The notes under the pieces were generated by a model. That model was given only the letters and a program-made list of their open reading frames with translations, did not search any database and was not told the DNA's origin. DNA of 64,000 nt from Hyphomicrobium facile (GTDB taxonomy: Bacteria > Pseudomonadota > Alphaproteobacteria > Rhizobiales > Hyphomicrobiaceae): the NCBI RefSeq assembly GCF_900116175.1, contig NZ_FPCH01000003.1, positions 868,001-932,000 on the forward strand. The letters run 5' to 3'. Position numbers and translations under genes: made by a program. Below, piece after piece: positions 5,330 through 35,032 of this stretch (positions within the stretch are counted from its first letter, which is position 1; each line of letters opens with the position of its first letter).

Positions 5330-6262
5330 TTGCAAGCGACCCGCATACGCATCGGGACTAGAGGCTCGCCTCTAGCCCTGGCCCAGGCACACGAAGTGCA
5401 AGCGCGCCTTACCGCCGCGCATGGCCTGCCGGAAGGCGCCGTGACGATCCACGTCATCAAGACGACGGGCGACCGTGTGCTCGACCGGCCGTTGTCTGAG
5501 GTCGGCGGCAAGGGGCTCTTTACCAAAGAAATCGAAGAGGCGCTTCTCTCGAACGAAGTGGATGTCGGCGTCCATTCGATGAAAGACATGCAGACGGTGC
5601 TTCCCGATGGGTTGATCATCGGTGGCGTGCTGCCGCGCGAAGATCCGCGCGATGCTTTCATTTCGTTGCGGCATGCCGACCTCAGCGCTCTTCCTGTCAA
5701 TGCGATCGTCGGAACGTCGTCGTTGCGACGGAAGGCACAGGTTCTCAATGTCCGCCCCGACCTTCGCGTCGTCGAATTTCGCGGCAACGTGCAGACGCGA
5801 CTTCGCAAGCTCGAGGAAGGCAAGGCCGAAGCGACGTTTCTCGCGGTGGCCGGTCTGAAGAGACTTGGCATGGAGGACCGGATCACGGCGCCGGTTTCAA
5901 TGGACGTGATGTTGCCTGCGGTGGCGCAGGCTGCGATCGGGCTTGAAGTTCGCGAAGGGGACGAGGCGACAGCCGCGCTGATTGCCGCTTTGAACGATCC
6001 GATGACTGCCCTGGCGGTTACCGCCGAGCGGACATTTCTCGCCCGCCTGGAAGGTTCTTGCCGGACGCCTATCGCTGGTCACGCCGTAATCGCAGATGGC
6101 ACCATGGTCTTTCGTGGGCAGATTCTTACGCCCGATGGTCAGCAGGTCTATGATGTTTCGCGAACCGGCGCGCCGGAGGAGGCTTCCAAACTCGGCCTTG
6201 CCGCGGCCGATGAAATCCTGGCTGAGGCAGATCCCGCACTTCTTATCCGATCGAGCGCCTGA
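5330..6262 (+). CDS. hemC: Hydroxymethylbilane synthase (porphobilinogen deaminase)
   Basis: The 310-residue protein carries IGTRGSPLALAQA, HSMKDMQT, GTSSLRRKAQ and the cofactor-binding loop EGSCRTPIAGHA, in which Cys244 attaches the dipyrromethane cofactor. It joins four porphobilinogen molecules to hydroxymethylbilane in the cytosol. The start is a TTG at 5330 preceded by GGAGA at the proper distance; no in-frame ATG lies nearby before the conserved N-terminus. The stop overlaps the first base of the hemD ATG, so the two are coupled. The operon continues through the mitofilin-like gene and hemY. Confidence 0.97.
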   Translation: MQATRIRIGTRGSPLALAQAHEVQARLTAAHGLPEGAVTIHVIKTTGDRVLDRPLSEVGGKGLFTKEIEEALLSNEVDVGVHSMKDMQTVLPDGLIIGGVLPREDPRDAFISLRHADLSALPVNAIVGTSSLRRKAQVLNVRPDLRVVEFRGNVQTRLRKLEEGKAEATFLAVAGLKRLGMEDRITAPVSMDVMLPAVAQAAIGLEVREGDEATAALIAALNDPMTALAVTAERTFLARLEGSCRTPIAGHAVIADGTMVFRGQILTPDGQQVYDVSRTGAPEEASKLGLAAADEILAEADPALLIRSSA

Positions 6263-6987
6263 TGCACGTCATCGTCACGCGACCGGTTGGCGATGCCGAA
6301 CCTCTCAAGTCAACCATTGAAGCGCTGGGCTGGCGGGTCACGCTCGCGCCGCTGATCGATATCGTGTCGAACGACATACCGGCTGACGCGCTCCGCGATG
6401 CGACGTCGCTGATCGCGACGAGCCGCAATGCGTTGACGCCAGCCTTGGGGTCCCTGATCGACCTGCCGTTTTTTGCGGTCGGTCCCGGTACGGGAGCCGT
6501 TGCTAGGGGCATAGGTTTCACGAAGGTCGTCGAAGGTCCGGGGACCGGGGCGGAACTCGTGCCCATAATCGCTTCGCGGCGGGCGGAGCTGGGTGAACGC
6601 CCAGTGTATCTTCGAGGTGACGTTGTTGCATTCGATGTCGAGGGCGCGCTGGGAGAAGCCGGCATTAAGGTCAAGGCGGTGAACGCCTATCGGTCAGTAG
6701 CGGCCGAAGCGTTGGATCCGCCAATGATCAAGGCACTCCGAAACGGCGATATCGATGCGGTTACACTGATGTCGCCGCGCACTGCCAAAACCTGGGCGAG
6801 GCTCGTCGGGGCGTTATCGCCGCCGGTACAACTTTCCGGCGTAACCCATCTCTGTCTTTCCGATCGCGTCGTCGAGGCCTTGGGCCAAACGGAAAAAGAC
6901 TTTAAGGTTCTGGTGGCTTTACATCCTAATCTCGAAGAAATGATTGCCCTCGTAAAACGTCTCGCGGCAAATTCGAAAGCGGAGTAA
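6262..6987 (+). CDS. hemD: Uroporphyrinogen-III synthase
   Basis: HemD is poorly conserved, but position directly after hemC (one-base overlap), length (241 residues) and the pattern VTRPVGDAEPLKSTIEALGW, FFAVGPGTGAVARGIGF, YLRGDVVAFDVEGAL and VTLMSPRTAKTWARLV identify it. It cyclises hydroxymethylbilane with inversion of ring D to give uroporphyrinogen III, the branch point to haem, sirohaem and cobalamin. Two half-domains are visible, residues about 1-40 and 165-235 forming one and the middle the other, as in known structures. Confidence 0.93.
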   Translation: MHVIVTRPVGDAEPLKSTIEALGWRVTLAPLIDIVSNDIPADALRDATSLIATSRNALTPALGSLIDLPFFAVGPGTGAVARGIGFTKVVEGPGTGAELVPIIASRRAELGERPVYLRGDVVAFDVEGALGEAGIKVKAVNAYRSVAAEALDPPMIKALRNGDIDAVTLMSPRTAKTWARLVGALSPPVQLSGVTHLCLSDRVVEALGQTEKDFKVLVALHPNLEEMIALVKRLAANSKAE

Positions 6988-7119
6988 TAAGCGCGTATCG
7001 CCGGTTAGATGTCCCGGCAACTGAGCCATCTCAACCAGACAAAATTTTTGCTTGAATGCCCGGCTACGAACCGGGATCAGGTGGCGTTACGCGAGTTCCG
7101 TGTGGAGGCTAAAGCTTCA

Positions 7120-8850
7120 ATGGCAGACGACAAATCGAATGCAGGACCAGGTAGCAAGCGGCCTTATGCGACGCTCGACCTCAAGGCGACCGAGGTTGAA
7201 ATCACCCCGGTGAAGGTTGGTGCTTCGTCGGCCGGGGCAAAAGCTTCCGCGGCCAGTGTGCCCCTTCCCGCGGCGGCACGATCGTACGCCGAAAAGCCAT
7301 CTGACGCTGCGACGGCGAGTGCCGCTCAATCGCAGGCCGATGCCAAGGCCGATGTCAGGGCTGACGCGATGCCGGAGTTCCTCAAGAAGGACAACGCGAA
7401 AGCGGAAGCCACGTCGTCGGCTTCTTCCGCTTCCAGCCGTGCTCGAGACAGCGACGACGAGGCCGTCGTCCGGAAGGGTGGCGGGTTTTTCAGTCACCTC
7501 GCGGCCGGCGTTGCCGGCGGCGTTCTCGCGCTTTCAGCTTATCAATGGGCGCTTCCGCAGCTGGGGCTGCGCGGTTCCAACGATGAAACCGCCGCGCTTT
7601 CGGAGCGCTTGGCAGCCGTTGAGAAAAAACAAAGTATCGCTGCTCCCGCTCCGGATTTGAGCAGCATCGAATTCCGTCTCTCAGATCTCGAGACGGCGAC
7701 GAAGAAAATCCCGGCCATCACGGAAAGCCAAAACCGCCTCGTTGCGGAAACCAAGGCCGCGCTCGCGTCGGCGGCCTCGGATGCGGGCTCGCCGCAGCTC
7801 ATCGAGCGTATCGGCAAAGTCGAGGATAAGTTCAAGGCGCTCGCGGATGCGGGCGTCAACGATCCCAATGCCAACCGCATCGAACAACTCGCGGCGCTGA
7901 CCGGTAAGGTCTCCGATCTCGAAACCAGTCTTGCGACACAGCTTACGGCGTTGCGCGTCAGCGTCGCCAAAGACGTCGAGGGACGTGTGCAAGCAGCGAC
8001 GGAAGCCAGTGAAGCCGCGCGGGCTGGAACTCAGCGGATCGATAAGGATGTCGCCGGTTTGAAGACCGACGGCGTGCGTATCGAAGCTGAAATCGCGGCG
8101 GTGAAAACTGCGAACGACCACGTCGCCGCCGATCTGAAGGTTGCCCAAGACGAGACGCAGAGCCTCAAAACTGCGTTCGAGGGATTGAAAACAGCTGCCG
8201 CCAAGCCGGCAGACATCGTGGCTGCCGTTCAGCCTCTCTCCGATCGTACGGCCGCTCTCGAGAAGAGCGTGCAGGACGTCGTTCAGGGAGACGCCGTTCG
8301 GAAGCAAAGTGCCGAGCGCGTCGTGCTCGCACTCGAGCTGCAAAATTTGCGGCGTGCGCTCGATAGCGGGCAGAACTTTGCGAGCCAGCTCGCGGACGTC
8401 AAGAAAGTCGCGGGCAATACCATCGATCTATCGGCTCTCGAAGCTTTGAAGGAAACCGGCGTTCCATCTCTCGCGGAACTCAACAAGGATTTCAGATCTG
8501 CCGCCGATCGCGCCATCGATGCCGACGCCGAGCCTGAGAATGCGGGTGTCGTCGATCGTCTATGGGCCGGCGCAAAGTCAATCGTTCGCGTTCGCCGCGT
8601 CGATCTCAAACCCGAGGACAAGAGCACAGAAGCGACTGTCGGGCGTATGCAGGTTGCATTGAATGACGGGCGTCTGCCGGATGTGCTCGAGGCTGCCAAG
8701 GATCTTTCGCCGAAAGCGCAGGATGCGGCGCGGCCGTTCCTCGATAAGGTTTCCGCGCGCGTCAGCGTGGATATCGCGCTTGCCAACCTCGAAGCTCAAC
8801 TCAAGTCATCTATTGCGACCGGCTCTCAGCAAACGTCGAAGTCGCCTTAA
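7120..8850 (+). CDS. Mitofilin / Mic60-like inner-membrane protein
   Basis: A 576-residue protein with a polar Ala/Lys-rich N-terminal region, one membrane segment (about residues 124-145, FFSHLAAGVAGGVLALSAY), a long predicted coiled-coil periplasmic region and a C-terminal segment (VDRLWAGAKSIVRVRRVD onward) that matches the bacterial mitofilin region. The frame is open from 7009, but the ATG at 7120 has a GGAGG site eleven bases upstream. Alphaproteobacterial Mic60 genes are known to sit in the hem cluster exactly as here, between hemD and hemY. Mitochondrial Mic60 shapes cristae junctions; bacterial members deform membranes and are linked to intracytoplasmic membranes. The role in this strain is inference. 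Confidence 0.85.
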   Translation: MADDKSNAGPGSKRPYATLDLKATEVEITPVKVGASSAGAKASAASVPLPAAARSYAEKPSDAATASAAQSQADAKADVRADAMPEFLKKDNAKAEATSSASSASSRARDSDDEAVVRKGGGFFSHLAAGVAGGVLALSAYQWALPQLGLRGSNDETAALSERLAAVEKKQSIAAPAPDLSSIEFRLSDLETATKKIPAITESQNRLVAETKAALASAASDAGSPQLIERIGKVEDKFKALADAGVNDPNANRIEQLAALTGKVSDLETSLATQLTALRVSVAKDVEGRVQAATEASEAARAGTQRIDKDVAGLKTDGVRIEAEIAAVKTANDHVAADLKVAQDETQSLKTAFEGLKTAAAKPADIVAAVQPLSDRTAALEKSVQDVVQGDAVRKQSAERVVLALELQNLRRALDSGQNFASQLADVKKVAGNTIDLSALEALKETGVPSLAELNKDFRSAADRAIDADAEPENAGVVDRLWAGAKSIVRVRRVDLKPEDKSTEATVGRMQVALNDGRLPDVLEAAKDLSPKAQDAARPFLDKVSARVSVDIALANLEAQLKSSIATGSQQTSKSP

Positions 8851-8870
8851 TCTTTCAAGGGGTTTGCGTC

Positions 8871-10601
8871 ATGGTGCGCCTCGTTATCTATTTGGTCACG
8901 ATCGCTCTCATCGCGTCCGGTCTTGCCTGGCTTGCCGACCGGCCAGGAACGCTGCAGATCGCCTGGCAGGGCTACGATATCGAGACGTCAGTTTTCCGCG
9001 CAGTCGTCATCCTGGCGGCGGCGGTGGCGACGCTCGTGTTCTTGTGGTCCATCTTTCGCGCGCTCTGGAATAGCCCGGCGGCCATCGGCCATCGTTTGCT
9101 GCGGCAACGGCAGAAGAAGGGGCTCGATGCTCTTTCCGGCGGTTTGATTGCGATCGGGGCGGGCGACAGTGCGCTCGCTTCGCGCTATGCGCTGCAGGCC
9201 CGCAAGACATTGCCGCATGAGCCGTTGACGCATCTCTTGCGTGCGCAGTCGGCTGAACTTGCCGGCGATCGCGCCGCGGCGCGTCGCATATACGAAGCAA
9301 TGCTCGCGTCGCCCGAAACGGAGCAGCTCGGCCTTCGTGGGCTTTTCCTCGAAGCACAGCGTGAGGGCGCAGGCGAAGCGGCCCGGCAGTTTGCCGATCG
9401 GGCGCTCAAAGCCAATCCCAAGCTCGGATGGTCGTCGACGGCGCTCTTCGAGCAGCAGTGCAAGCAGAAGGATTGGTCAGGCGCACTGGCAACGCTGGAT
9501 CACGCCAAAAAGAGCGGCCACATCACGAAGGCCGTCGCCGATCGCAAGCGCGCCGTTCTCCTTACGGCGAAGGCTACCGCCATCGAGGACGATGCGCCGG
9601 ACAAGGCGCTCGCTTGGTCGCTCGAAGCGCACGGGCTCGCGCCGGACCTCGTACCCGCAGCGGTCATCGCCGGGCGTATCCTCGCGTCACGCGGCAATAC
9701 CGCCAAGGCTGCGAAGGTGCTTCAGAAGACGTGGACGAAATCTCCGCATCCGGATCTTGCGGCGACCTATGCCTACGCCCGTATCGGCGACAGCACGCGC
9801 GATCGTCTCGACCGCGTGCGCCAGCTTGCGGCCCTCAATCCGCATTCGATCGAAAGCCCCATTGCTGTTGCCACCACGGCGACGGAAGCGCGGCTGTACG
9901 ACGAAGCCCGCCGGGCTCTCGAGCCGCTTCTTGCCGATCGACTCACGCAGCGTGTCGCGATGCTGATGGCGCGCATCGAAGCCGGTGAGAACGGCGAGAA
10001 GGGGCGCGTGCGCGAATGGCTGGCGCGGGCGATGAACGCGGCTCGCGATCCGGCCTGGATGGCCGACGGCGTCATTTCCAATCATTGGGAGCCGACATCG
10101 CCGGTCGACGGCCGTCTCGATGCCTTCCAATGGCGCGTGCCGGTTGAGACGACGGACGGCAAGGGAAGTGAAATTCTTGCCAGCAAGATCGACGAGCTTA
10201 TCGCGATCGCGCCGGTTGCGACGAAGGACGGTGCCGAGCGTTCCGAAGCCGGGCGCCCCGACAATCCGGATGACGTTGAAAGCAAGCTGGCTCAGACTGA
10301 CGGTGGCGACATCGTCGAGGCTGAACCCGTGACCGTTACGGTCAAGCCGAACGGAGCGGGAGGCGAGCCGAAAGCTCAGTTTCCAGAAGCGTCAGTCAAC
10401 GGTATCGCTCGTCCTCTGCCAGCGGCGGAGGACGCGATCACCGCGGCCCGGCGGATGGCGACTCCGGATCGGGCCCCGGCCGCGAAGCCCGAACCGCAGG
10501 TCTATGTCACGCCCCGCGCGCCGGACGATCCGGGAACGGATACCATCGAGCCAGAACTCGAACAGCCCGTGGCGCGTCGAAACTTTCGCACGGTCAACTA
10601 A
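8871..10601 (+). CDS. hemY: HemY-domain protein with TPR repeats
   Basis: The 576-residue product has two N-terminal membrane segments (about residues 3-19 and 42-63), the HemY_N pattern ADRPGTLQIAWQGYDIETS, and then TPR-like helical pairs (residues about 100-400). A low-complexity acidic and Pro-rich tail follows. In proteobacteria this HemY is an inner-membrane protein of the haem operon whose role is in haem or porphyrin handling; it is not the protoporphyrinogen oxidase called HemY in Gram-positives. It follows the Mic60-like gene by 20 bases and is the last gene before a hairpin at 10616-10633. Confidence 0.9.
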   Translation: MVRLVIYLVTIALIASGLAWLADRPGTLQIAWQGYDIETSVFRAVVILAAAVATLVFLWSIFRALWNSPAAIGHRLLRQRQKKGLDALSGGLIAIGAGDSALASRYALQARKTLPHEPLTHLLRAQSAELAGDRAAARRIYEAMLASPETEQLGLRGLFLEAQREGAGEAARQFADRALKANPKLGWSSTALFEQQCKQKDWSGALATLDHAKKSGHITKAVADRKRAVLLTAKATAIEDDAPDKALAWSLEAHGLAPDLVPAAVIAGRILASRGNTAKAAKVLQKTWTKSPHPDLAATYAYARIGDSTRDRLDRVRQLAALNPHSIESPIAVATTATEARLYDEARRALEPLLADRLTQRVAMLMARIEAGENGEKGRVREWLARAMNAARDPAWMADGVISNHWEPTSPVDGRLDAFQWRVPVETTDGKGSEILASKIDELIAIAPVATKDGAERSEAGRPDNPDDVESKLAQTDGGDIVEAEPVTVTVKPNGAGGEPKAQFPEASVNGIARPLPAAEDAITAARRMATPDRAPAAKPEPQVYVTPRAPDDPGTDTIEPELEQPVARRNFRTVN

Positions 10602-18729: not shown

Positions 18730-20019
18730 TCACCCCTTGTTGGGTGGCGTGGGCCCGTTCGACGATGACGGTGCTGTCGAGGAATTCGGCCGTTCCTTGA
18801 TGTTGACGCGGTCGCCATCGACGATGCCGTCGGGAACGCTTTCGATCACGCGGTCTTCCGGAGCGAGGCCGGACGCAACCTCGATCGTCGCCCCCAAGTC
18901 ACGGCCAATCGTGATCGGCTTGAGGAGCACCTTATCGTCGGTGCCAACCGTCGCGACACGTAAACCCGCTTTATCGAACAGGACGGCGCTGGCCGGGATG
19001 ACCAAAACGTCGTGCTTGTTGCCAACCGTCAAATGAACGCTGGCATAGGCGCCCGGCATCAGCTCACCAGCGGTGTTGTCGACAACGAGCTGCATACGCG
19101 TCGTGCCGGACGCGACATCGACGGCGCCAGAGGAGGCCTCGACCTTCGCTTCATACTTCTTGCCGGGCCGCTCGGGGACTGTCAGCACGCCGATCGTGCC
19201 GTTCGGAATCATCGGCACGTACACCTGGGGCACGTTCACATAAAGCCGCAGTTTGTGGACGTCGGCGACCACGAACATTTCCGAGCCGGTGGAGCTGCCG
19301 ACATTGATCAAATTTCCAACGTCGGTATTGCGCACGGTCACGATACCGTCGAACGGCGCGACGATGCTTTTGTATTGAGTGAGCGCCTTCAGCCGATCTA
19401 CGTTGGCCTGCGCCGACTTCACCAACGCGTTCTTCGATTCGAGGTCGGCCAGCTTTTCATCGGCCTGCTGATGGGTGACGTAGCTGTTCGGGAGAAGCGC
19501 CTGGAAGCGTTGGTTGGTGACGGCGGCGAGGGCGGCGTTGGCCTTCGCGTTGTTCAGGTCGTACTCCGCCTGAGAGAGCTGCTGATCGAGATCGGGTGCA
19601 TCGATCGTCGCGAGCACATCTCCCGTTTTTACGTGTGTGCCGATGTCGGCGTTGCGGCTCGCCACGTAGCCGCTCACGCGCGCAAAAAGCGCGGCCTGAT
19701 AGTAGGCATCCAAGCGGCCCGGCAGGTCGAGCAGGCCTATGCTCGGCTGGACGGCGGGTGTCGAAACGGCGACCGTCGGAATGGCGCGCGTGGCAGACTT
19801 GTTCTTCAATTGGGCGATGCTCTCTTCGCGGCCTGTGATGCCGGTAAAGGCGAGCAAGGCTGCGCCGCCGATGAACAGGAGGGCGAGCAGGGGCATCTTC
19901 CAGCGGGATCGCCGAGGCCTCTCAATTGGATTTCCAGCCAGACTTCCTGGCGGGCTCGCTGACGGGTTCTCCGGCCGTTGCCGGTTCTCTGGTGGCTTCA
20001 CCAAGGGCTCATGCTGCAT
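18730..20019 (-). CDS. RND efflux periplasmic adaptor (membrane-fusion protein)
   Basis: The 429-residue protein has a Pro-rich cytoplasmic N-terminus, one membrane anchor (about residues 42-61), then the barrel-sandwich half GRLDAYYQAALFARVSGYVASRNADIG, a helical hairpin, the second lipoyl half SIVAPFDGIVTVRNTDVGNLI, and beta-barrel/membrane-proximal domains. This is the HlyD/AcrA adaptor family that links an RND pump to an outer-membrane channel. The start at 20019 has AGGAG seven bases upstream and overlaps the end of the pump gene by eleven bases. No outer-membrane factor gene is present, so a TolC-like protein elsewhere must be used. Confidence 0.93.
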   Translation of the reverse strand: MQHEPLVKPPENRQRPENPSASPPGSLAGNPIERPRRSRWKMPLLALLFIGGAALLAFTGITGREESIAQLKNKSATRAIPTVAVSTPAVQPSIGLLDLPGRLDAYYQAALFARVSGYVASRNADIGTHVKTGDVLATIDAPDLDQQLSQAEYDLNNAKANAALAAVTNQRFQALLPNSYVTHQQADEKLADLESKNALVKSAQANVDRLKALTQYKSIVAPFDGIVTVRNTDVGNLINVGSSTGSEMFVVADVHKLRLYVNVPQVYVPMIPNGTIGVLTVPERPGKKYEAKVEASSGAVDVASGTTRMQLVVDNTAGELMPGAYASVHLTVGNKHDVLVIPASAVLFDKAGLRVATVGTDDKVLLKPITIGRDLGATIEVASGLAPEDRVIESVPDGIVDGDRVNIKERPNSSTAPSSSNGPTPPNKG

Positions 20020-23000
20020 GAAATTCTCCTGGGATTGCACCTTGCGGCGATGATGAGCTTGCGGACTTCCGCCGGTGCATCAGGCTAAAAATAATCGGTA
20101 CAATGAATAACGTTGCAGCCGTCGCGAACAAGAGGCCACCGATCACCGCGCGGCCAAGCGGGGCATTCTGTTCGCCACCTTCCCCAAGACCCAATGCCAT
20201 CGGCGCCATGCCGATAACCATGGCAAGCGCCGTCATCAGAACGGGACGGATGCGGACGAAGCCCGATTCAAGCGCGGCCTGGATGGGATCGCCGTGTTCC
20301 GCCAGCCGCTCCCGCGCAAAGGTGACCACCAAAACGGCGTTCGCGGTCGCGACGCCCATGCACATAATGGCTCCCGTCAATGCGGGCACCGACAGTGTGG
20401 TTCCGGTGACGAATAGCATCCAGACGATGCCGACGAGGGCCGCGGGGAGCGCCATGATGATCACGAGCGGATCGCCCCAGGATTGAAAATTCACGACAAT
20501 GAGCAGGTATATAAGCACGATGGCGCCGAGGAGTCCGAACAACATTCCAGTATAGGCACTGTTCATTGTGCGCACTTGACCGAGGAGCACCGCGGTCGCG
20601 CCTTTCGGAAGATCGGCCTTGGTGGCATCGACGATCTTCTGGATGTCGGCTGCAACGGCACCGAGATCACGGCCTTCGGTCGTCGTCAGGATCTGCACCA
20701 TCGACTGGATATCGTATTGCGACACGACGGCATTGCTCGTCATGCGATCGACACTGGCGACGGCTCCGAGAATTTGGGGCGCGGGCGCGCCGTCGGCGGT
20801 GATCGGCAAGTTCTCCAGAGACGTCAGCGAGTCGAGCTTGTACTGCGGTGTCTGGATGACGATCGGATAGGTGACGCCGTTCGCCTTGTTGAGCCAGTAA
20901 ACGGGATTGACCTGACTCGTGCCGGCGAGGCTCGTGCTCAAACTCGCAGTAACGTCGCGCTCGGTCACGCCGACGTATTGCGCGCGCGAGCGATCTACGT
21001 TCACCTTGAAGCCTGGGTTCTCTCGCGATTGCTGAATGCGCGCATCGGCGACCCCCGGGATCAGTTTGATTTGCCGTAAAATCTTCTCGGCATAGTCGAA
21101 GTTCGGGCCGAGCTTCGGTCCTCGGATCTGGAGATCGATGGGCGTCGGCGCGCCGAAGTTCAAAATCTGACTGACGATATCGGCGGGCAGGAACGAGAAG
21201 GTCGCTCCGGGGAAGCGCTTCGGCAGTTCGTCGCGCAGTTCCTTGACATATTCGGCCGTCGGGCGATGGTCCGGATTGAGCGCAACTTGGATATCGCCAT
21301 CCTGCGGCCCGATCACACCGGTGTTGTTATATGACATGTTGATGCCGCTGACCGGAATGCCGATGTTATCGACCATAGCGCCGAGGTCTTTCGGCTCGAT
21401 GATTTCACGAATGGCATCTTGAATTTGCGCAAACGTTCGCGCGCTCTCCTCGACACGCGTGCCGATATCGAGCCGCACGTGCATCAGAATTTGACCGGAA
21501 TCGACCCGAGGAAAGAAGTTGCGGCCGAGATAGGGTACCAGCAAAAACGATGCGCCGATAAATCCGAACGAGAAGATCAGAACGAGCGTTCGATGTGAAA
21601 GCGCGCTTTCGAGAAGGCCATGATAGCCGTTACGCATTCTCTCGAAGCGATGTTCGAATGCGCGCTGAAAGAGAAGGAATGGATTGCGGGTTGGTCTGCT
21701 ATGCCCGTCAGGATCGTGCATCTTCAGCAGGTACTTCGCCATCGTCGGCACGAGGGTGCGAGAGAGTGTGAAGGACGCGACCATAGCGAACACGACGGCT
21801 TCCGCCATCGGTACGAATAGAAAGCGAGCAACGCCTTCGAGGAAGAACATGGGGACGAAAACGATACATATGCAGAGCATCGAAACAAATGCGGGCGTCG
21901 CGATCTGATCGGCTCCGTCGAGGATGGCGGTCTCGACGTCCTTTCCTTGCTCCAGATGGTAGTTGATGTTTTCGATCGTCACCGTCGCTTCGTCGACGAG
22001 AATACCGACGGCCAGCGCCAAGCCGCCGAGTGTCATGACGTTCAAGGTTTCGCCGAGCGCCGACAGCATCGCTACCGATGCCAACACGGCTAGCGGAATC
22101 GAGGTTGCGATGATGACCGTCGAACGGACGCTACCCAAGAAGAGAAGGATCATAATGCTCGTCAAAGCGGCGGCGAGAACGCCTTCGTGAATGACGTTTT
22201 GCACGGCTGCGCGGACGAAGATCGATTGATCTCCGAGGAGCGATATCGTCAGCGCATCGGGAAGCCCCGGTTTGATCTCCTGGATCTTGTCTTTGACGCC
22301 TTGGATAATCGCGAGCGTGGAAACTGCGCCGTTTTTCAAGACCGACAGCAGAACGGAGCGGTTGCCGTTGACGTGCACGATATTCTGTTGCGGAGGGTTT
22401 CCATCGCGGATGTGGGCAACATCGCGGATGTAGACCATCGCGCCGTTGACGGCCTTGATCGGCAAGTCGCCCAAGGCGCTGATGTCGGACGGCGCATTGT
22501 TCAGCTGCATCGTATATTCGGTGCCGCCGATTTTCTGGGTGCCGACCGGATTTATGAGGTTCTGGGCGCCGAATGCGTTCGAAACATCCTGTGCGGAAAG
22601 GCCCTTCGCATGGAGCGCCGTATCATCGAGATCAATCTGGATCTGGCGCGTCTTGCCGCCGAAGGGATAGGGAACGGCGGCACCGGGCACCGTCACGAGC
22701 CGCGTGCGGATGTTGTTCAGGGCGAGGTCGGACAGGTTCTGTTCGGTCAAGCCGTCGCCGCCGAGTGCGAGCTGCACTATCGGCACGGTCGAGGCGCTGT
22801 AGTTCAAGATGAGCGGCGGTGTCGCACCGGGCGGCAACTGCTTCAGGATAGTCTGCGATACAGCTGTCACCTGCGCGTTGGCGGTGCGGATATCGGCGCC
22901 CGGCTGGAAGAAGATCTTGACGATACCGATGCCGTTATACGAGTTCGCCTCGATATGTTCGATATCGTTGACGGTCGTCGTTAGGACGCGCTCGAACGGC

Positions 23001-23197
23001 GAAACCACTCGACCAGCCATCTCATCCGGAGGCAGCCCCGTATACTGCCAGACCGTTGCGATGACGGGGATGCGAATTTCGGGGAATATGTCGATCGGCG
23101 TGCGGAATGCCGCCAAGGTACCAGTAAGAAGAATGAGCAGCGCCAACACGACGAATGTGTACGGCGACCGCAGCGCTATACGCACCAATGCAGCCAT
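20009..23197 (-). CDS. RND-family inner-membrane efflux transporter
   Basis: A 1062-residue transporter with the twelve-helix RND plan: first membrane helix at the N-terminus (TFVVLALLILLTGTLAAF), a periplasmic porter domain, helices 2-6 including the proton-relay motif GILVDEATVTIENI in helix 4, and the second half with GAIMCMGVATANAVLVV in helix 10. The pair of acidic residues in helix 4 is DE rather than the AcrB-type DD, as in several related pumps. It exports drugs or other small molecules from periplasm or membrane. It heads the operon with the adaptor and is divergent from the LysR gene, the likely regulator. Substrate unknown. Confidence 0.95.
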   Translation of the reverse strand: MAALVRIALRSPYTFVVLALLILLTGTLAAFRTPIDIFPEIRIPVIATVWQYTGLPPDEMAGRVVSPFERVLTTTVNDIEHIEANSYNGIGIVKIFFQPGADIRTANAQVTAVSQTILKQLPPGATPPLILNYSASTVPIVQLALGGDGLTEQNLSDLALNNIRTRLVTVPGAAVPYPFGGKTRQIQIDLDDTALHAKGLSAQDVSNAFGAQNLINPVGTQKIGGTEYTMQLNNAPSDISALGDLPIKAVNGAMVYIRDVAHIRDGNPPQQNIVHVNGNRSVLLSVLKNGAVSTLAIIQGVKDKIQEIKPGLPDALTISLLGDQSIFVRAAVQNVIHEGVLAAALTSIMILLFLGSVRSTVIIATSIPLAVLASVAMLSALGETLNVMTLGGLALAVGILVDEATVTIENINYHLEQGKDVETAILDGADQIATPAFVSMLCICIVFVPMFFLEGVARFLFVPMAEAVVFAMVASFTLSRTLVPTMAKYLLKMHDPDGHSRPTRNPFLLFQRAFEHRFERMRNGYHGLLESALSHRTLVLIFSFGFIGASFLLVPYLGRNFFPRVDSGQILMHVRLDIGTRVEESARTFAQIQDAIREIIEPKDLGAMVDNIGIPVSGINMSYNNTGVIGPQDGDIQVALNPDHRPTAEYVKELRDELPKRFPGATFSFLPADIVSQILNFGAPTPIDLQIRGPKLGPNFDYAEKILRQIKLIPGVADARIQQSRENPGFKVNVDRSRAQYVGVTERDVTASLSTSLAGTSQVNPVYWLNKANGVTYPIVIQTPQYKLDSLTSLENLPITADGAPAPQILGAVASVDRMTSNAVVSQYDIQSMVQILTTTEGRDLGAVAADIQKIVDATKADLPKGATAVLLGQVRTMNSAYTGMLFGLLGAIVLIYLLIVVNFQSWGDPLVIIMALPAALVGIVWMLFVTGTTLSVPALTGAIMCMGVATANAVLVVTFARERLAEHGDPIQAALESGFVRIRPVLMTALAMVIGMAPMALGLGEGGEQNAPLGRAVIGGLLFATAATLFIVPIIFSLMHRRKSASSSSPQGAIPGEFHAA

Positions 23198-23428
23198 GCT
23201 TCAGAAATCTCCACATCGCCGGCTAGAAATTCGGAACCATCTGACGCGTCAGCTACAAAACAGGATGAGGCTTCGGTTCCGTCTGTTGACGCGCATTACT
23301 TATCGGCGATGAAGGGCGCGCTTCAATTATACCTTCATCTACTCTCGTTAACGGAGATACAAATCAATCACCCGACCGGCAGAAATGGGGGTCTACGGCT
23401 CATCTGTCCAATAGTATGTAGGGATGTT

Positions 23429-23451
23429 ATTATTCTGATTTGCAGATTAAT
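23429..23451. promoter_or_regulatory. Palindromic operator candidate for the LysR regulator
   Basis: ATTATTCTG (23429-23437), spacer ATTTG, CAGATTAAT (23443-23451): an inverted repeat with eight of nine matching pairs, containing the T-N11-A arrangement of LysR boxes. It ends 12 bases before the LysR start at 23464 and lies in the divergent region with the RND operon, consistent with autoregulation and control of the pump. Confidence 0.6.
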
Positions 23452-23463
23452 CGGACGCACCGG

Positions 23464-24387
23464 ATGGATCTCAAGCAGCTTAAACATTTCGTCGCTGCCG
23501 CAGAAGAGCAGCACTTCACCCGAGCTGCACGCAAAATGAATATCGTTCAGTCGGGGCTTTCGGCTTCAATTCGGGCGCTCGAGCAGGAAATGGGCGCACC
23601 GCTGTTTGTCCGCACTACGCGGCGGGTGGAGCTGACGGTTGCCGGCCAGGTGCTCTACGAGAGGGCTCTGCTGATCATTGCGGGCGTCAGAGACGCGCGT
23701 CGCGCGGTCGCGGCTATCAGCGGTTTGGAGCGGGGTTCACTGAGCATCGGGACGTGCGCCAGCCTCAATGCTTTTTTCGATCTTCCGCTCTTGCTCGGAG
23801 AGTTCCACGCGCTGCACCCGGATGTCGAAATTCGCCTCTGCCACAGTACGGCAGCGAAGCTGATGGACAAGGTGAAGGATAGCAGCATCGATTTGGCGTT
23901 CTTGCCGCTCTACGAAAAGAGCCGGGAAATCGTATCGATGCCGATCGCATCCGATCGTCTGGTCGTTGCCCACCCTTTGGGTCATCCGCTCGAGGGACGC
24001 GAAAGCGTTTCGCTCCACAGCCTCGCGGGCGAGACGTTTGTCGACTTTCAGCTCGATCAGGGAACGCGGCGGATCGTCGACCGGGCATTCGCCGCCATCA
24101 ACGTCTCTCGCAAGACGGCGCTCGAGGTTGGCGATGTGCAGGTGCTGCTCGATCTCGTCGCGCGGGGCTTCGGCATCGCTCTCGTACCCTACACGTTCGT
24201 CATGGCGCGGGCCGCGCAATCGACGACGCCCAAGATCGGCATCACGTCACTCCGAAAGCCCGGGATCCGGTGGGAGCTCGTCGCTGCCTTCAGCGGCCGC
24301 GCGGGGGCGGCGCAATCGCGCAATCCGGCTGTCGCGGCCTTCACCGGGGTCTTGGACAGGGTTCGCTCGGAGAAGAAACTTTTCTGA
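23464..24387 (+). CDS. LysR-family transcriptional regulator
   Basis: A 307-residue regulator with an N-terminal winged helix-turn-helix (DLKQLKHFVAAAEEQHFTRAA, then QSGLSASIRALEQEMGAPLF) and a periplasmic-binding-type effector domain (residues about 90-295). The ATG at 23464 gives the usual LysR N-terminus; an upstream TTG at 23440 would lie inside the operator palindrome. It is divergent from the RND efflux operon and convergent with the channel-fusion gene, 23 bases from its end. Most likely it controls the pump in response to a small molecule; control of the channel gene is possible but unproven. Confidence 0.93.
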   Translation: MDLKQLKHFVAAAEEQHFTRAARKMNIVQSGLSASIRALEQEMGAPLFVRTTRRVELTVAGQVLYERALLIIAGVRDARRAVAAISGLERGSLSIGTCASLNAFFDLPLLLGEFHALHPDVEIRLCHSTAAKLMDKVKDSSIDLAFLPLYEKSREIVSMPIASDRLVVAHPLGHPLEGRESVSLHSLAGETFVDFQLDQGTRRIVDRAFAAINVSRKTALEVGDVQVLLDLVARGFGIALVPYTFVMARAAQSTTPKIGITSLRKPGIRWELVAAFSGRAGAAQSRNPAVAAFTGVLDRVRSEKKLF

Positions 24388-24410: not shown

Positions 24411-26711
24411 CTACGCAGAACTTGCGAGATAGACGTAGTAGGCCATCCCGGCGACCATTGCGGGAACCGCTACGATGTGAAGGAAGACCAGGCTCGTTTT
24501 CAGCCAGCGGATCGGTTCGACCCTCTTGTTCTCACGCGCAATCGTGATGGCGATGATCACGCTCAACATGAAATAGGTGAACAGGAACATTCGATCGGAG
24601 AGCGTTTCGATATTGGCGTCGATCTTCGGTAGCGCGAGATACAACGCGACGGCGGACAGCAATGCCGTGACCTGTATCGTCACGATGGCCTCGAAGTGAT
24701 GCGTCGAGATGAAGATCGACAAATAGGCGATGATCAGGATGAAGGCCAACGGCACGACGACCCTGAGAAAATAGTCCGTCGTTTCGCGTTTCATCAGCCA
24801 TGCGAAGCTGGCTTTATAAAATGGAAATACACTCGGCTCGAGTGTTTGTGCGTCCACTGTGCGAACGAAGTCGACGTCGTATCCAACATACTGGTCTCTC
24901 GCGTCCCAGCCATCCACCTTCACCACATGGTCTCGCACCTGCTGCGGCGGCGGCTGAACGATGAACGGTGTGTTGCCGGGCTTCGGCCGCAGGTCGATCG
25001 AAAAGCGCTGCGTATCGAACGGATAATTTCTGAGATCCGGCGCGTATACGAATTTGCCCGTCACCTGATAGATTTTCATGTGGTCGGGATAGGCGGCGCT
25101 TTGGCCGCCGTCGTGAATGGCGCGGACGGTGATCTGACGTTCGTTGGAGCCGGGCTCGAGATAGGCGTTGGCGAATTCGATCTGCTCGATCGAGGCGCCG
25201 CTCCGGTCATTCATCGATAGATAGAAGTCTGCGAAGAAGGTCTTTTCGGAGTCGTCGATACGTTCGGCATGGATGAGATCTATGTCGGCGTAAAGCGTAT
25301 CGATCCGTTGCAGGCTCTGATCGCGCAGGTGAAGGAACTGTATCGGTGCAAGCTGCGCACGGCTGCGGCCGCGGGGCAGCATGACGATCAGCGGTGTCCG
25401 GGCTGCGGCGCGTGATGCCGGCTGGAACGACCAGTTATCGAAGCGTCCCTTGAATATCCCGCGGCCAGAGGCGTAACCGGTTTTCAGCTGGTCGACGATC
25501 AGGTTGCGAACATCGGGTATCTCAGCGGTGATTTCCGCCGAGCGTGCCGCTTCAGCGATCAGGCTGACGACATCGGCGTATTGTGCGCCAACCGACAACG
25601 CACGCATGTTGGGAATATCGAGAACGTTGAGGGGAATGTCCTCGTCTCGCGGCTTGCACGTTCCGTCCTTCCAGCCGGGCGCGCTGGAATTTTTCGCGCC
25701 CTCGAAAATCCATTGGCTCGGATATGGCGTGCTCGAAATAAGCGCGCGCAGTCTCTCGCTATAGCCGTCGGGAAGCTCGTTCCAGGCAAGCTGATAGACG
25801 TCGTTCGCGTAGGCATCAGCGCCTTGGTTCGTGACTGAATCGACGCGGCCGGCGACGAATAGCGGCGGCGTGAAGCCTGCGTCCTGAAACTGCTTTACGA
25901 CGTCCTTCATCCGGTCGCCGCCGACTGCGAGAAAGACGATCCCGACATTTTTCGCCTTGAGGTCAGCGACAGCGGCTGCGAGCGCAGCCGGATCGAGCTT
26001 GTCGGCCGTGAGTTGCAGCCGATGGTCGGCGACAAGGCCTCCACTCAGAAACTCTTTAAGGCTGTCACTGAAATTGGTGCTTCCAAGCAAGGACTGGATG
26101 CCGATGAAAGCAGGCCGCTCGAAATGAGCCAGTTTCACAAACTCGGCGATGACCGGCATGCGCTCCTCGTCCTCGGACGCGCGAGTCGTGAAAACGTTGG
26201 GGTAATCCTTGATGAGGTCGGTAACCGATATGTCGGACATGAACGGAATGCCGCTCGCCTTCAAATCCTTGCCGTTCGCATCGAGTGCCGCCTGGGCGCG
26301 AGTTGCGTTCGATATGCCAATCATCGCGATCGTCTGGGGATCCGAGATGGCGGCCGCCATATTCTCGATCGTGCTCTGCGGCAGACGCTGATCGTCGAGA
26401 ATGTTCACTACGACCTTGCGTCCGGCAATTCCGCCATCCTGATTGATGCGGTGTTGGGCCAGCGTTGTGAGGCGTTTGATGGCCTTCAGCTGGCCGCTGT
26501 CATAGCAGTCGTCGTTTCTCGATGTGACGAAGACCTGCATGATGAGTGGAGGGCGCGCCGCTGCTTCCGCTTTGTCCATTGCGTGCGCAATTGATGGAGC
26601 GAGGGCGCTCGCAACCAACGAGGTTCCGAAAGCGGCAACGGCATGAGCGACTGACGCACGGCGAAGCACGTTCGCGCAAAATTCAGACAAAACTGATCTC
26701 ACGTTTCCCAC
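24411..26711 (-). CDS. Periplasmic-binding-protein domain fused to a pentameric ligand-gated ion channel
   Basis: The 766-residue protein joins two known folds. After a signal peptide (cleavage near residue 44, AHA) residues about 55-425 are a type-I periplasmic binding domain like branched-chain amino-acid receptors (HRINQDGGIAGRKVVVNILDD, IAMIGISNA, AFIGIQS). Residues about 465-645 are a Cys-loop-type extracellular domain with the Pro-loop LRNYPFDTQRFSIDL. Then come four membrane helices: M1 646-668, M2 672-696, M3 706-726, M4 738-762. M2 (FEAIVTIQVTALLSAVALY) aligns with the GLIC pore: Glu674 at position -2', Thr at 2' and 6', Leu685 at 9', which predicts a cation-selective pore. Such fusions exist in bacteria but are rare and hardly studied. 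It is monocistronic, convergent with LysR. Ligand unknown. Confidence 0.93.
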   Translation of the reverse strand: MGNVRSVLSEFCANVLRRASVAHAVAAFGTSLVASALAPSIAHAMDKAEAAARPPLIMQVFVTSRNDDCYDSGQLKAIKRLTTLAQHRINQDGGIAGRKVVVNILDDQRLPQSTIENMAAAISDPQTIAMIGISNATRAQAALDANGKDLKASGIPFMSDISVTDLIKDYPNVFTTRASEDEERMPVIAEFVKLAHFERPAFIGIQSLLGSTNFSDSLKEFLSGGLVADHRLQLTADKLDPAALAAAVADLKAKNVGIVFLAVGGDRMKDVVKQFQDAGFTPPLFVAGRVDSVTNQGADAYANDVYQLAWNELPDGYSERLRALISSTPYPSQWIFEGAKNSSAPGWKDGTCKPRDEDIPLNVLDIPNMRALSVGAQYADVVSLIAEAARSAEITAEIPDVRNLIVDQLKTGYASGRGIFKGRFDNWSFQPASRAAARTPLIVMLPRGRSRAQLAPIQFLHLRDQSLQRIDTLYADIDLIHAERIDDSEKTFFADFYLSMNDRSGASIEQIEFANAYLEPGSNERQITVRAIHDGGQSAAYPDHMKIYQVTGKFVYAPDLRNYPFDTQRFSIDLRPKPGNTPFIVQPPPQQVRDHVVKVDGWDARDQYVGYDVDFVRTVDAQTLEPSVFPFYKASFAWLMKRETTDYFLRVVVPLAFILIIAYLSIFISTHHFEAIVTIQVTALLSAVALYLALPKIDANIETLSDRMFLFTYFMLSVIIAITIARENKRVEPIRWLKTSLVFLHIVAVPAMVAGMAYYVYLASSA

Positions 26712-31974: not shown

Positions 31975-32685
31975 TTAGCTCCGCGTGGCGAGTTCGGTGC
32001 GGTTGCGAGCTCCAAAATGCGAAAAGAGAGCCGCAAGGTGGATTTTTACCGTGCCTTCGGCGATGTCGAGTTCGCGTGCGATTTCTTTGTTCGAAAGGCC
32101 CCGGCGGACACAATCCAGGACGTCGCGTTGCCGCGGTGAAATGGCTTTGTTGGTGGCTCCACCGCCGGGGTCCCGCTTTGCGGCAGGCGTATCGGAGCTT
32201 GCGAGCTTTGCTCTGTGTTCGGCATTGCCCGACGTCATGAACCGCGGCACGAAAACGCGGCCATCCAGAATGTCATTCAGCGCGCCGACGATCTCGTCGT
32301 CCGCCAGTGATTTGGGCACATATCCGTTGAGGCCCATGGCAACGGCCTTGACGACGTCGTTGCGTTCTTCCGATCCCGAGACAATCGCAACTCGAATGCT
32401 GGGATAGGCCTCTTTCACCACGCGCAGGCCCTCGGGTCCCGAAATCCCCGGCATCGCCAGATCGAACAGCGCGAGCTCGACGTTTGGTGTTTCTGCAAGA
32501 CGATCGAGCGCAGCGTCGAACGACGACGCTTCGATGACAGAACGAAATCCCATTCGATCGCGAAGCAAAAAGCTGAATCCGGACCTGTAAAGTCCATGGT
32601 CGTCGGCCACCAGAACCGTATCCCGCTCTGCGACCGGCATCGCCTTTTCTACGTTGGTCTTTTCCAAATTAGCTGGCACTTGCAT
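31975..32685 (-). CDS. NarL/FixJ-family response regulator
   Basis: The product (236 residues from ATG 32685) has a receiver domain (VLVADDHGLYRSG; phospho-Asp75 in LALFDLAMPGISG; Lys in GYVPKSL) and a LuxR-type helix-turn-helix (ISPRQRDVLDCVRRGLSNKE, then VKIHLAALFSHFGARNRTEL). It overlaps the 3' end of the hybrid kinase gene and is clearly its partner. GGAG precedes 32685 closely; starts at 32703 or 32640 cannot be excluded. It should bind DNA as a dimer after phosphorylation; targets unknown. Confidence 0.92.
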   Translation of the reverse strand: MQVPANLEKTNVEKAMPVAERDTVLVADDHGLYRSGFSFLLRDRMGFRSVIEASSFDAALDRLAETPNVELALFDLAMPGISGPEGLRVVKEAYPSIRVAIVSGSEERNDVVKAVAMGLNGYVPKSLADDEIVGALNDILDGRVFVPRFMTSGNAEHRAKLASSDTPAAKRDPGGGATNKAISPRQRDVLDCVRRGLSNKEIARELDIAEGTVKIHLAALFSHFGARNRTELATRS

Positions 32686-35032
32686 TGGCTCCGTACTCGG
32701 CATTGAAGCTATTCAGCGAAACTTTATGAGCATTGAGAATTGCACTCAGCGTGGCAGCGATAAGCTCGGGATCTGCCGGCTTGGTAAGCCATGGCCTCCC
32801 TGATTTTGCCAGTATCGCCAGAGTAGCAGAATCAGTGCCGCCGGAAAGGATCACGGCGGGAATATCCGTGTTCGTTCTAGCTGCCATGCGTTTGATGAAT
32901 TCCAGGCCCGTTTCCGATCCTCTCAGATCGAAATCAAGCACGGCTGCATCGATCGCGAGCCCCTTGCTGAGGCCTTTCTCGGCTTCGGCCGCCGTTTGGT
33001 AGCCGAAAGCGAGATTGCCGCGATCTTCGAGATCGCGCATCAGGGCTGCGACGATGAGGGGATCGTCGTCCAGAACGAGTATTCTCATGCCGTAGATGGC
33101 CGTCTCGGACTTGGGCGACGGTTCTGGCCGGCGCGCGCCTTCGAGGATGCTGCTCTTCGGTAGTACAATCGTAAATCGCGAGCCGCGTCCGCGCCGGGAG
33201 GTGACGAGGATCTTCATGCCGAGCAGCTCGGCGTAGCGGCGCGCGATCGAAAGGCCGAGGCCAAGTCCGTCATTCACGCCATAGGCGCGCTGATCGGCGC
33301 GCGAAAATTCTTCGAATATCTTTTCGCGGCGTTCGATGGGAAATCCGGGGCCGGTGTCGAAAACGTCGATCACGCGTTCGCCGTCTCGTTCGCGCGCAGC
33401 AAGTATGACGCCGCCGTACTTCGTGAATTTCAAGGCATTCGAGACGAGATTGCGGATAATGGTTTCGAGCAGGGCGGCATCCGTTTCGATGATCCAGTCG
33501 CGTGAGCGGCTGAGAAACTTCAAGCCGTTCTGCTCGGCTTCGACTTTCGAGCCAACCGAAATCCGTTCGATGATCTCGCTGACCGATACAGAGGTTTTCG
33601 CCGGATCGATCAGCTTGGCGTCTAGGCGCGAGATGTTGAGAAGCGCATCGAACATGCCCTTCAATCCGCGCAAGCCTTCCTCCATCTGCGCAACGAGCGT
33701 CGTCGCTTCGTTGCCGCTGACACGGCGCGCAAGCGCACGCGCGAATAATGTCAGTGCGTGCAGAGGCTGACGGAGATCATGGCTGGCCGCCGCGAGAAAG
33801 CGGGACTTGGCTTCGGTCGCGAGTTCCGCTTCGGCCTTTGCGCGCTCGAGGCCGATGTTTTGCTCAGCGAGTCGCTGCGTTCGTTCCTGGACCTGTGTTT
33901 CAAGGGATTGGTTTGCGGCCGCAAGGGAAGCTCTTTGGGCGTCGAGCTCCTTGACGAGGGATCTGAGGGATTTTGACAGGACCCGTGCTTCTTCGTAGCC
34001 GCCAACCTGCGGGAACTCGAGCTTCTGCCCGCGCCGCAGGCCTTCCGCCGTATCGGCGAGCTGGAGCAGCGGTTGCGAGAGCTTGCCGGCGAGTATCCAA
34101 GCCAAAAGAGCGGCGAGGGCCGCGACGATGCCGCCGCATATCAGAATTGTTGTCTGCAAGCTTCGCACGGGTGCGAACGCGAGTTTCTGATCCTCCCGCA
34201 CGAGAACGATCCAGTGCAAGCCGGGATAAGACCGGTAGCCATCGCTTTTTGAAAATCCCGTCACGTAAGACATGGCGTCCGGCCACTGTTCGACGGCAAA
34301 ACCGGCATCGCCTGGACGGGCGGCTCTGATGCTCGGCAGATCCAATGTTTTTCCGGTTATGTCGTCCGGACCAAAAAGGACCTGCCTCGCTTCGTCGAGC
34401 ACAATGACGTCGGCAGGAATTGCATCTTTCATGCTGCCGAGAAGGGTGTCGCGAACTTCTTCCGCCCAATCGGCGCTCAAGGTCGCGCCAAGGACACCGA
34501 ACGTGGACTCCGAGTCCGAGATCGGGACCGCGAGATCAATAAAATCCGATGTCGTGTGACCGTCTCGCGGGGGCGGACCGTGATCGGGCCGGGCCGGAAG
34601 CTTGACGTCGCCCACATATGGTTCGTGTAGACCCTTCTTGAACCAGACTTGATTGCTGACGTTCTGTCCTTCGTATTCGCCGCGAGTCGAGCTCAGGATT
34701 TTGCCATTATGATCGGCAAACCCGATCCAGGAATAATCGGAGTATGCGCTTTGAAATCTCTCAAGCGAGGCGCGTAACGCGTCCGGCGTGTCGGTCTTTT
34801 GCAAGATCTTGCCGATGGCCGCCATGTTGTCGAGGGATTGGAGGCGCTCGAACATGGCGCGGTCGAGCTTGTCTTGCATTTCATCCGCCAGCAACGCCAG
34901 CGATTGACCAATCTCTTGTTCAAGGCGGCTCACGGCATCGCGCCCGATCACGTAGGACACGGCAATCGTCAACAAAAGTGAGACTAGGGAGATCGCCGCC
35001 GCAATCAGGACTTTTAACGAAACGCGCCGCAT
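32669..35032 (-). CDS. Hybrid sensor histidine kinase with Cache-type sensor and receiver domain
   Basis: The 787-residue protein starts with a membrane helix (about 5-29), a large periplasmic Cache-like sensor (30-290), a second helix (293-316), a HAMP-like and coiled-coil linker, the phospho-acceptor His418 in ASHDLRQPLHAL, an ATPase domain (NLVSNALKF, DTGPGFP, GLGLGLSIARRY) and a C-terminal receiver with Asp700 in VLDFDLRG and Lys751 in LTKPAD. The H-box sequence SHDLRQPL is that of HPK families paired with NarL-type regulators. ATG 35032 gives the usual short N-terminus; an open extension upstream lacks support. It reads into the overlapping regulator gene. Confidence 0.92.
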   Translation of the reverse strand: MRRVSLKVLIAAAISLVSLLLTIAVSYVIGRDAVSRLEQEIGQSLALLADEMQDKLDRAMFERLQSLDNMAAIGKILQKTDTPDALRASLERFQSAYSDYSWIGFADHNGKILSSTRGEYEGQNVSNQVWFKKGLHEPYVGDVKLPARPDHGPPPRDGHTTSDFIDLAVPISDSESTFGVLGATLSADWAEEVRDTLLGSMKDAIPADVIVLDEARQVLFGPDDITGKTLDLPSIRAARPGDAGFAVEQWPDAMSYVTGFSKSDGYRSYPGLHWIVLVREDQKLAFAPVRSLQTTILICGGIVAALAALLAWILAGKLSQPLLQLADTAEGLRRGQKLEFPQVGGYEEARVLSKSLRSLVKELDAQRASLAAANQSLETQVQERTQRLAEQNIGLERAKAEAELATEAKSRFLAAASHDLRQPLHALTLFARALARRVSGNEATTLVAQMEEGLRGLKGMFDALLNISRLDAKLIDPAKTSVSVSEIIERISVGSKVEAEQNGLKFLSRSRDWIIETDAALLETIIRNLVSNALKFTKYGGVILAARERDGERVIDVFDTGPGFPIERREKIFEEFSRADQRAYGVNDGLGLGLSIARRYAELLGMKILVTSRRGRGSRFTIVLPKSSILEGARRPEPSPKSETAIYGMRILVLDDDPLIVAALMRDLEDRGNLAFGYQTAAEAEKGLSKGLAIDAAVLDFDLRGSETGLEFIKRMAARTNTDIPAVILSGGTDSATLAILAKSGRPWLTKPADPELIAATLSAILNAHKVSLNSFNAEYGANASAS

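Follow-up and report, generated by a model that had tools for sequence, protein, structure and literature searches.

A periplasmic-binding-protein domain fused to a predicted pentameric ligand-gated ion channel in Hyphomicrobium facile

What would a bacterium do with a solute-binding domain built directly onto an ion channel? The question is raised by one gene of Hyphomicrobium facile, located on the minus strand at positions 24411 to 26711 of a 64,000-nucleotide stretch of contig NZ_FPCH01000003.1 (positions 868,001 to 932,000; the whole stretch is referred to here as the window). The gene joins a type-I periplasmic-binding-protein (PBP) domain to a predicted pentameric ligand-gated ion channel (pLGIC). 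The reading favored here, with moderate confidence, is that its product assembles as a homopentamer into a cation channel of the inner membrane, and that a ligand bound by the PBP domain gates or tunes this channel.

The architecture is already known. Fusions of PBP-I domains to channels in Bradyrhizobium japonicum and Magnetospirillum magnetotacticum were proposed to be chemotaxis receptors (Tasneem et al. 2004-05, PMC549065), and many of the additional N-terminal domains of prokaryotic pLGICs are PBP-like according to a 2022 review (PMC9221113). The window protein shares the PBP-I-channel order and the chemoreceptor proposal with the fusions of Tasneem et al. An original prediction, made from the window sequence, had also put forward the chemoreceptor idea, which is already that of Tasneem et al. 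(PMC549065). The same prediction had considered the ligand, assembly, and physiological role undescribed, and the excerpts of open-access literature searched contained neither a description of these nor any study of how a PBP-fused pLGIC functions or is built. As of 2016, no pLGIC of a unicellular organism had a known biological role (PMC4795631).

Reading frame and domain order

Conservation is given below as counts in an alignment of 42 Hyphomicrobium-type sequences, the window protein included; the distant clade is a second set of PBP-pLGICs, defined further on. The features of the gene, in window coordinates, were as follows.

24411..26711, minus strand: whole gene, PBP-pLGIC fusion, 766 amino acids (open frame, intact in its own genome, substitution ratios)
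26580..26711, minus strand: signal peptide, about residues 1 to 44 (hydrophobic residues 19 to 42, then AHA; predicted cleavage site)
25371..26564, minus strand: type-I PBP domain, residues 50 to 447 (Peripla_BP_6, profile matches, hhalign to LivJ)
26505..26507, minus strand: Cys69, probable disulfide partner of Cys352 (cysteine co-occurrence)
25656..25658, minus strand: Cys352, probable disulfide partner of Cys69 (cysteine co-occurrence)
25410..25466, minus strand: conserved junction, residues 416 to 434 (G416, G422, W427, F429, and R434, each invariant in 42/42; putative coupling role)
24792..25370, minus strand: Pro-loop receptor ectodomain, residues 448 to 640 (profile A2 alignment with GLIC, hhalign to the distant clade)
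25008..25040, minus strand: Pro-loop PDLRNYPFDTQ, residues 558 to 568 (Pro564 and Asp566 invariant in 42/42)
24786..24788, minus strand: Arg642 just before M1, expected to pair by charge with Asp566 (invariant in 42/42)
24414..24791, minus strand: four-helix transmembrane domain, residues 641 to 766 (hydropathy, GLIC/DeCLIC alignment)
24624..24692, minus strand: M2 pore helix, residues 674 to 696, -2' to 20' (ungapped GLIC alignment)

The frame extends from a GTG start at 26711 to a stop at 24411 and contains no interior stops; translation could equally well begin at the GTG of codon 4 (26702). In a search of its own 4.4-Mb genome, the fusion gene was single-copy and intact. The claim that one gene encodes a signal peptide, a type-I PBP domain, a Cys-loop-type ectodomain, and a four-helix pore was borne out, the frame being exact and the profile searches in agreement. 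Promoter and terminator scans returned no more than did scans of shuffled sequences.

The PBP and channel halves are jointly under purifying selection. Ratios of nonsynonymous to synonymous substitution rates (dN/dS) for the whole gene were 0.08 and 0.11 against the two closest relatives and, by part, 0.06 to 0.11 for the PBP domain, 0 to 0.014 for the ectodomain, and 0.07 to 0.10 for the membrane part. Across the nine pairs examined, whole-gene values were 0.08 to 0.17, those of the more distant pairs being unreliable because dS was near or above 1.

The channel half and the ligand pocket

The channel half is predicted from sequence comparison to adopt the Pro-loop receptor core. A single-sequence phmmer search with the window protein retrieved 4yeu (E value, 1.3e-7), named as a combination of Cys-loop channel and proton-gated channel. 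Profile A2, constructed from the channel half of 24 sequences (317 positions), matched the DeCLIC entries 6v4a (1.4e-7) and 9ftg (1.3e-7) from the Pro-loop onward (profile positions 112 to 314, the identical aligned stretch). It also matched GLIC entries, such as 3eam (5.3e-6), across the ectodomain and membrane domain (positions 26 to 310 of 317), with weak coverage of the ectodomain (about 29 to 30 bits over the chain). Compared by hhalign with the distant clade, the ectodomain and membrane domain together gave 99.5% over 288 columns (reversed control, 0.1%).

The Pro-loop motif NYPFDTQ (residues 562 to 568) and the four-helix pore, both named in the original prediction, were recovered. Residues Pro564, Asp566, Arg642, Asp646, and Pro654 (the M1 proline) were invariant in all 42 sequences, and hydropathy placed membrane segments at about residues 643 to 764, compatible with four helices, with M1 and M2 partly merged. 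The Pro-loop proline, the one absolutely conserved pLGIC residue (PMC4795631), is thus present as Pro564, and the acidic loop residue and basic pre-M1 residue that form a trait of the pLGIC superfamily (PMC549065) are present as Asp566 and Arg642.

M2, which would line the pore, aligned with that of GLIC without gaps, and Glu674 is therefore placed at -2', Thr678 at 2', Thr682 at 6', and Leu685 at 9', the register claimed previously. Glu at -2' was found in 41/42 sequences, Ile at 0' in 37/42, Thr at 2' in 37/42, and both Thr at 6' and Leu at 9' in 42/42. The acidic ring at -2' points to a filter of the cation type, as had been proposed, and cation flow is predicted. A basic residue occupies 0' in 79% of the pLGICs surveyed in one study (PMC4795631); at this position, the aligned GLIC sequence has Asn and the window clade mostly Ile. 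GLIC, the proton-gated channel of Gloeobacter, is alignable with the window protein in ectodomain and pore and shares its M2 register with Glu at -2', but differs in having no PBP domain. DeCLIC, the top profile match among solved channels, is a bacterial pLGIC that also carries an additional periplasmic N-terminal domain, but its extra domains are two jelly-roll lobes and not a PBP (PMC9897478, PMC12664993). In the distant-clade rows whose M2 was inspected, M2 has mostly Ser/Ala/Thr-Ser/Thr-Arg at -2' to 0', compared to Glu-Ala-Ile in the window clade (register read by eye, with L130 deviating), and ion selectivity may therefore differ between the two clades.

The N-terminal half was assigned to the PBP type-I family. 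Pfam Peripla_BP_6 matched residues 85 to 310 (4.2e-16, 60 bits against a cutoff of 31.7) and was found in 42/42 aligned sequences (E value, 0.01). Profile A3, representing the N-terminal half, matched putative leucine/isoleucine/valine-binding proteins (best, 6.6e-13) and the LIV-binding entries 2liv (1e-7) and 1z15 (2.4e-7), and hhalign gave 95% over 190 columns against Escherichia coli LivJ and 94% against LivK. All of these PBP matches are confined to the first two thirds of the domain, the C-terminal third not being recognized in its own right by Pfam or PDB-profile searches. Beyond its signal peptide, the window protein contains just two cysteines, Cys69 and Cys352. Cysteines in these two regions were both present in 39/42 sequences and both missing in 3/42, a joint pattern that suggests a probable disulfide between Cys69 and Cys352.

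Whether the domain would bind amino acids was assessed at the residue level. Polar ligand contacts of LivJ include Ser79 and Thr102, according to a docking study (PMC6983066). The LivJ pocket positions were mapped onto the relatives by MAFFT. The equivalent of Ser79 is S in 32, A in 9, and P in 1 of the 42 sequences (Ala136 in the window protein), that of Thr102 is V in 35/42 and T in one (Val163), and that of Glu226, another amino-acid pocket residue of LivJ, is G in 40/42 (Gly288). Position 289, next to the Glu226 equivalent, is R in 32/42, and the alignment may be shifted by one residue at this point; R138 and S162 in the same pocket region were each conserved in 39/42. The earlier suggestion that the binding domain resembles receptors of amino-acid-like ligands is not supported by these residues, and an amino-acid receptor was rejected at the residue level for the window clade, since almost all of the 42 sequences have other residues in place of Thr102 and Glu226. 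The distant clade keeps the LivJ pocket (S in 11, T in 11, Y [Tyr150] in 11, and E in 10 of 12 rows), and an amino-acid-type pocket is therefore attributed to the wider family and not to the window clade, which probably binds something other than an ordinary alpha-amino acid. LivJ and LivK are PBP type-I proteins homologous to the window protein over about 190 columns but differ from it at these pocket residues, and the window protein has an extra conserved segment with the probable C69-C352 disulfide.

Distribution and relatives with an MscS-type pore

Fusions with extra N-terminal domains had been called rare, which the genome searches contradict. Relatives of the fusion were found in 65/103 genomes of the family (threshold, 1e-10) and in 45/76 of the high-quality ones, and such proteins have been in the literature since 2004-05 (PMC549065; also the 2022 review, PMC9221113). 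Within the genus, 21/22 genomes had a match, the H. facile genome included and one (G058) by a fragment only; the sole genome with no match (G057) is 71% complete. One stop-free stretch covering at least 640 query residues was tallied from the search table in 54 of the 65 matching family genomes. More widely, 22/397 sampled genomes of the order had a match, and 17/397 sampled genomes of the phylum matched the channel profile. A scan of named genomes, which used two peptide patterns and is not a census, yielded 76 loci. The titles of most of them name Hyphomicrobium, Filomicrobium, Hyphomicrobiaceae, or further Alphaproteobacteria; five were from Bacteroidota (four Pontibacter and one Adhaeribacter). 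No match was found among 72,556 plasmid records searched for plasmid spread.

The distant clade, found with the channel profile, comprises 12 rows with both domains in one open reading frame (L127 to L132, L134 to L136, L138, L139, and L141); it does not include L133 and L137, which have the channel part alone, the MscS-type L140, or the unfused L142. In a PBP tree of 43 rows (13 of 42 close, 11 of 12 distant, 5 of 6 other, and 6 MscS-type rows, excluding L179, L174, L186, and some near-duplicates), 35 fused rows fell on one side and 8 other PBPs on the other, with support of 82/86; a single origin of the fusion is neither shown nor rejected by this tree.

Three side observations were made among these loci. 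Adhaeribacter terrigena (L117) carries two tandem PBP-pLGIC genes (5800-7959 and 7994-10159), which could form a heteromeric channel. An unfused 371-amino-acid pLGIC (L142, contig C10) was found in G079, a genome that also has a PBP-fused one. A PBP-pLGIC was also present in a record titled Akkermansia muciniphila (L110), a title that we guess may belong to a mislabeled metagenome bin.

Proteins of about 1,000 amino acids that combine a PBP-I domain, a Cys-loop-type ectodomain, and an MscS-type pore (L140/L144 [G513:C27], L145, L146, L149, L163, and L164) were found in a second class of the phylum, where more than one family has them. They contain Peripla_BP_6, a middle domain, and the beta-domain of MscS, the last recognized as Pfam MS_channel_2nd in 6/6 proteins tested. 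By hhalign, the middle domain (8 rows) matched the ectodomain of the distant clade, taken without L136, at 99.1% (E value, 1.6e-18; reversed control, 0.2%), and its match to the window-clade ectodomain was 96.2% (2.7e-9; reversed control, 1.0%); the Pro-Phe-Asp of the Pro-loop is degraded in it. In that class, 23/48 genomes matched one MscS-fused protein at 1e-40; the matches are of full length in part only, and PBP-pLGICs and fragments are among them. The MscS-type pore differs from the pLGIC pore in fold and canonical symmetry. The presence of the same PBP and ectodomain pair on an MscS pore suggests that the pair may be a portable sensor. No description of a fusion of PBP, ectodomain, and MscS was found in the excerpts of open-access literature searched.

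Proposed gating and its alternatives

In the proposed mechanism, the LivJ-like Venus-flytrap domain would be located in the periplasm atop the channel ectodomain, where a periplasmic small molecule would close it. The motion would pass through the invariant junction (G416...W427-x-F429...R434) to strand 1 of the ectodomain and then via the Asp566-Arg642 gating pair to M1 and M2, so that the cation pore with its Glu -2' filter would be opened or tuned. A sensing role is supported by the attachment of the same PBP and ectodomain order to an MscS pore in another class. PBP-type domains have ligand-binding or modulatory roles in other ligand-gated channels (PMC549065, PMC12664993). NMDA/AMPA-type glutamate receptors also place a PBP-type domain on a ligand-gated channel, a likeness of working only. 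Their pore is tetrameric and unrelated to the pLGIC pore. They also have an extra PBP-II domain (PMC549065).

Several observations weigh against this reading. None of the 42 sequences matched a Pfam pLGIC (Neur_chan) family at an E value of 0.01, which reflects a recognition limit of the models and not a defining trait; the NCBIfam LIC model gave 0.0026 and 16.5 bits against a cutoff of 280, and a Neur_chan_LBD probe of the H. facile genome was uninformative, as 14 control genomes likewise gave no match. Conservation of the pocket region is no proof of binding. In DeCLIC, calcium exerts its action at the ectodomain, whereas the extra N-terminal domain has an influence on gating (PMC9897478), and the PBP domain thus need not be the agonist site. 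Finally, some copies are broken. In G078 (L077), an in-frame TAG lies exactly between the PBP domain and the ectodomain; G084 (L105) has a frame change at residues 408/414; and one of the two G100 copies (L119/L204) has a frame change between 458 and 477 and two TAA codons in the PBP part, the second copy of that genome being in one 932-amino-acid frame. These three breaks lie near the junction of PBP and ectodomain. Elsewhere, G025 (L085) has a frame change at 272/290, and a Pontibacter copy (L115) shows two or more interruptions.

The strongest alternative is that the agonist, or protons, would act at the ordinary ectodomain site and that the PBP domain would be an allosteric modulator or local concentrator of ligand. 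We regard it as unlikely but deserving serious weight. It draws on the modulation of DeCLIC by its N-terminal domain (PMC9897478), on the proposal of Tasneem et al. that the PBP concentrates or senses ligand for the channel's own site (PMC549065), and on unfused pLGICs, which function with no PBP-type domain; a 371-amino-acid unfused paralogue occurs in G079. The junction residues, however, are fixed in 42/42 sequences, and it was the PBP and ectodomain pair, not the ectodomain alone, that moved onto the MscS pore.

It is improbable that the PBP domain has ceased to bind ligand and serves as a structural cap, periplasmic spacer, or docking surface. The loss of the LivJ clamp (T102 to V in 35/42 and E226 to G in 40/42, with Ser79 replaced by Ala in the window protein) would fit such a role, but the residues of the pocket rim have been refixed and are not drifting (R138, S162, and R289, at the frequencies above), and the low dN/dS of the PBP domain against the two closest relatives argues against it as well.

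Very improbable, and already contradicted for most copies, is that the halves need not act as one chain and that the fusion is accidental or easily undone: three drafts break the frame near the junction and others break it elsewhere, but the H. facile frame is intact, long stop-free stretches are the rule among matching family genomes, the same domain order occurs in Bacteroidota and the distant clade, and the downstream pieces of the three junction-broken copies have, by eye, no evident signal peptide. The four Hyphomicrobiaceae-type broken copies all come from multicontig draft genomes, and sequencing error, decay, and gene fission are not told apart for the three junction breaks. Split frames in other strains, named in the original prediction as grounds for refutation, occur near the junction in a few drafts (G078, G084, and one G100 copy), and 54/65 matching family genomes keep the long stop-free stretch.

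In its genomic surroundings, the fusion gene forms a convergent pair with a LysR gene and a divergent pair with an SDR gene. An RND efflux pump and membrane-fusion protein adjoin the LysR gene (window positions 18730-24387); it is mainly the closest relatives that keep them next to the channel gene. The LysR, RND pump, membrane-fusion protein, SDR, and hydrolase neighbors were each found in 7 to 9 of the 76 named loci, chiefly the closest ones, and a conserved operon or partner gene was rejected, since the most widespread neighbor family occurs in 9/76 loci; absences of neighbors are soft because genes were called by a crude open-reading-frame rule and many loci are short. No chemotaxis genes were found among seven window neighbors by Pfam scan, and no neighbor family was kept across clades in clusters inspected by eye. 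Elsewhere in the genome there are three MCP-signal and three CheW-domain matches, and an unlinked chemotaxis role is possible. A response-regulator-like gene (identified by eye from a relative's sequence) lies at 31975-32703 in the window, some 5 kb away from the fusion, and 4/76 loci keep it. Besides the fused domain, the genome has one further Peripla_BP_6 match at 1e-8 (contig C4, 480222-481262), which is few for an alphaproteobacterium.

Beyond the favored reading of a PBP-gated or PBP-tuned cation channel, a broader proposal is offered tentatively, as possible rather than probable: that PBP and Cys-loop ectodomain form a portable two-story sensor cassette, carried on at least two unrelated pores (pLGIC and MscS-type), whose pocket in the Hyphomicrobium-type clade has been respecified to accept, in place of amino acids, a different small molecule that may be acidic (Arg289 in 32/42), making it a near-universal single-gene electrical chemosensor of the genus. 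Confirmation of the MscS-fused relatives would show that a Cys-loop-type ectodomain is able to combine with a pore that has another fold and, canonically, another symmetry, and the way in which ectodomain motion leads to channel opening could then be tested directly. Clades that keep the LivJ pocket and clades that have lost it predict different ligands for the same channel plan. The near-universal presence of the fusion in one genus (21/22 genomes) makes Hyphomicrobium a natural place to seek the physiological ligand and a knockout phenotype.

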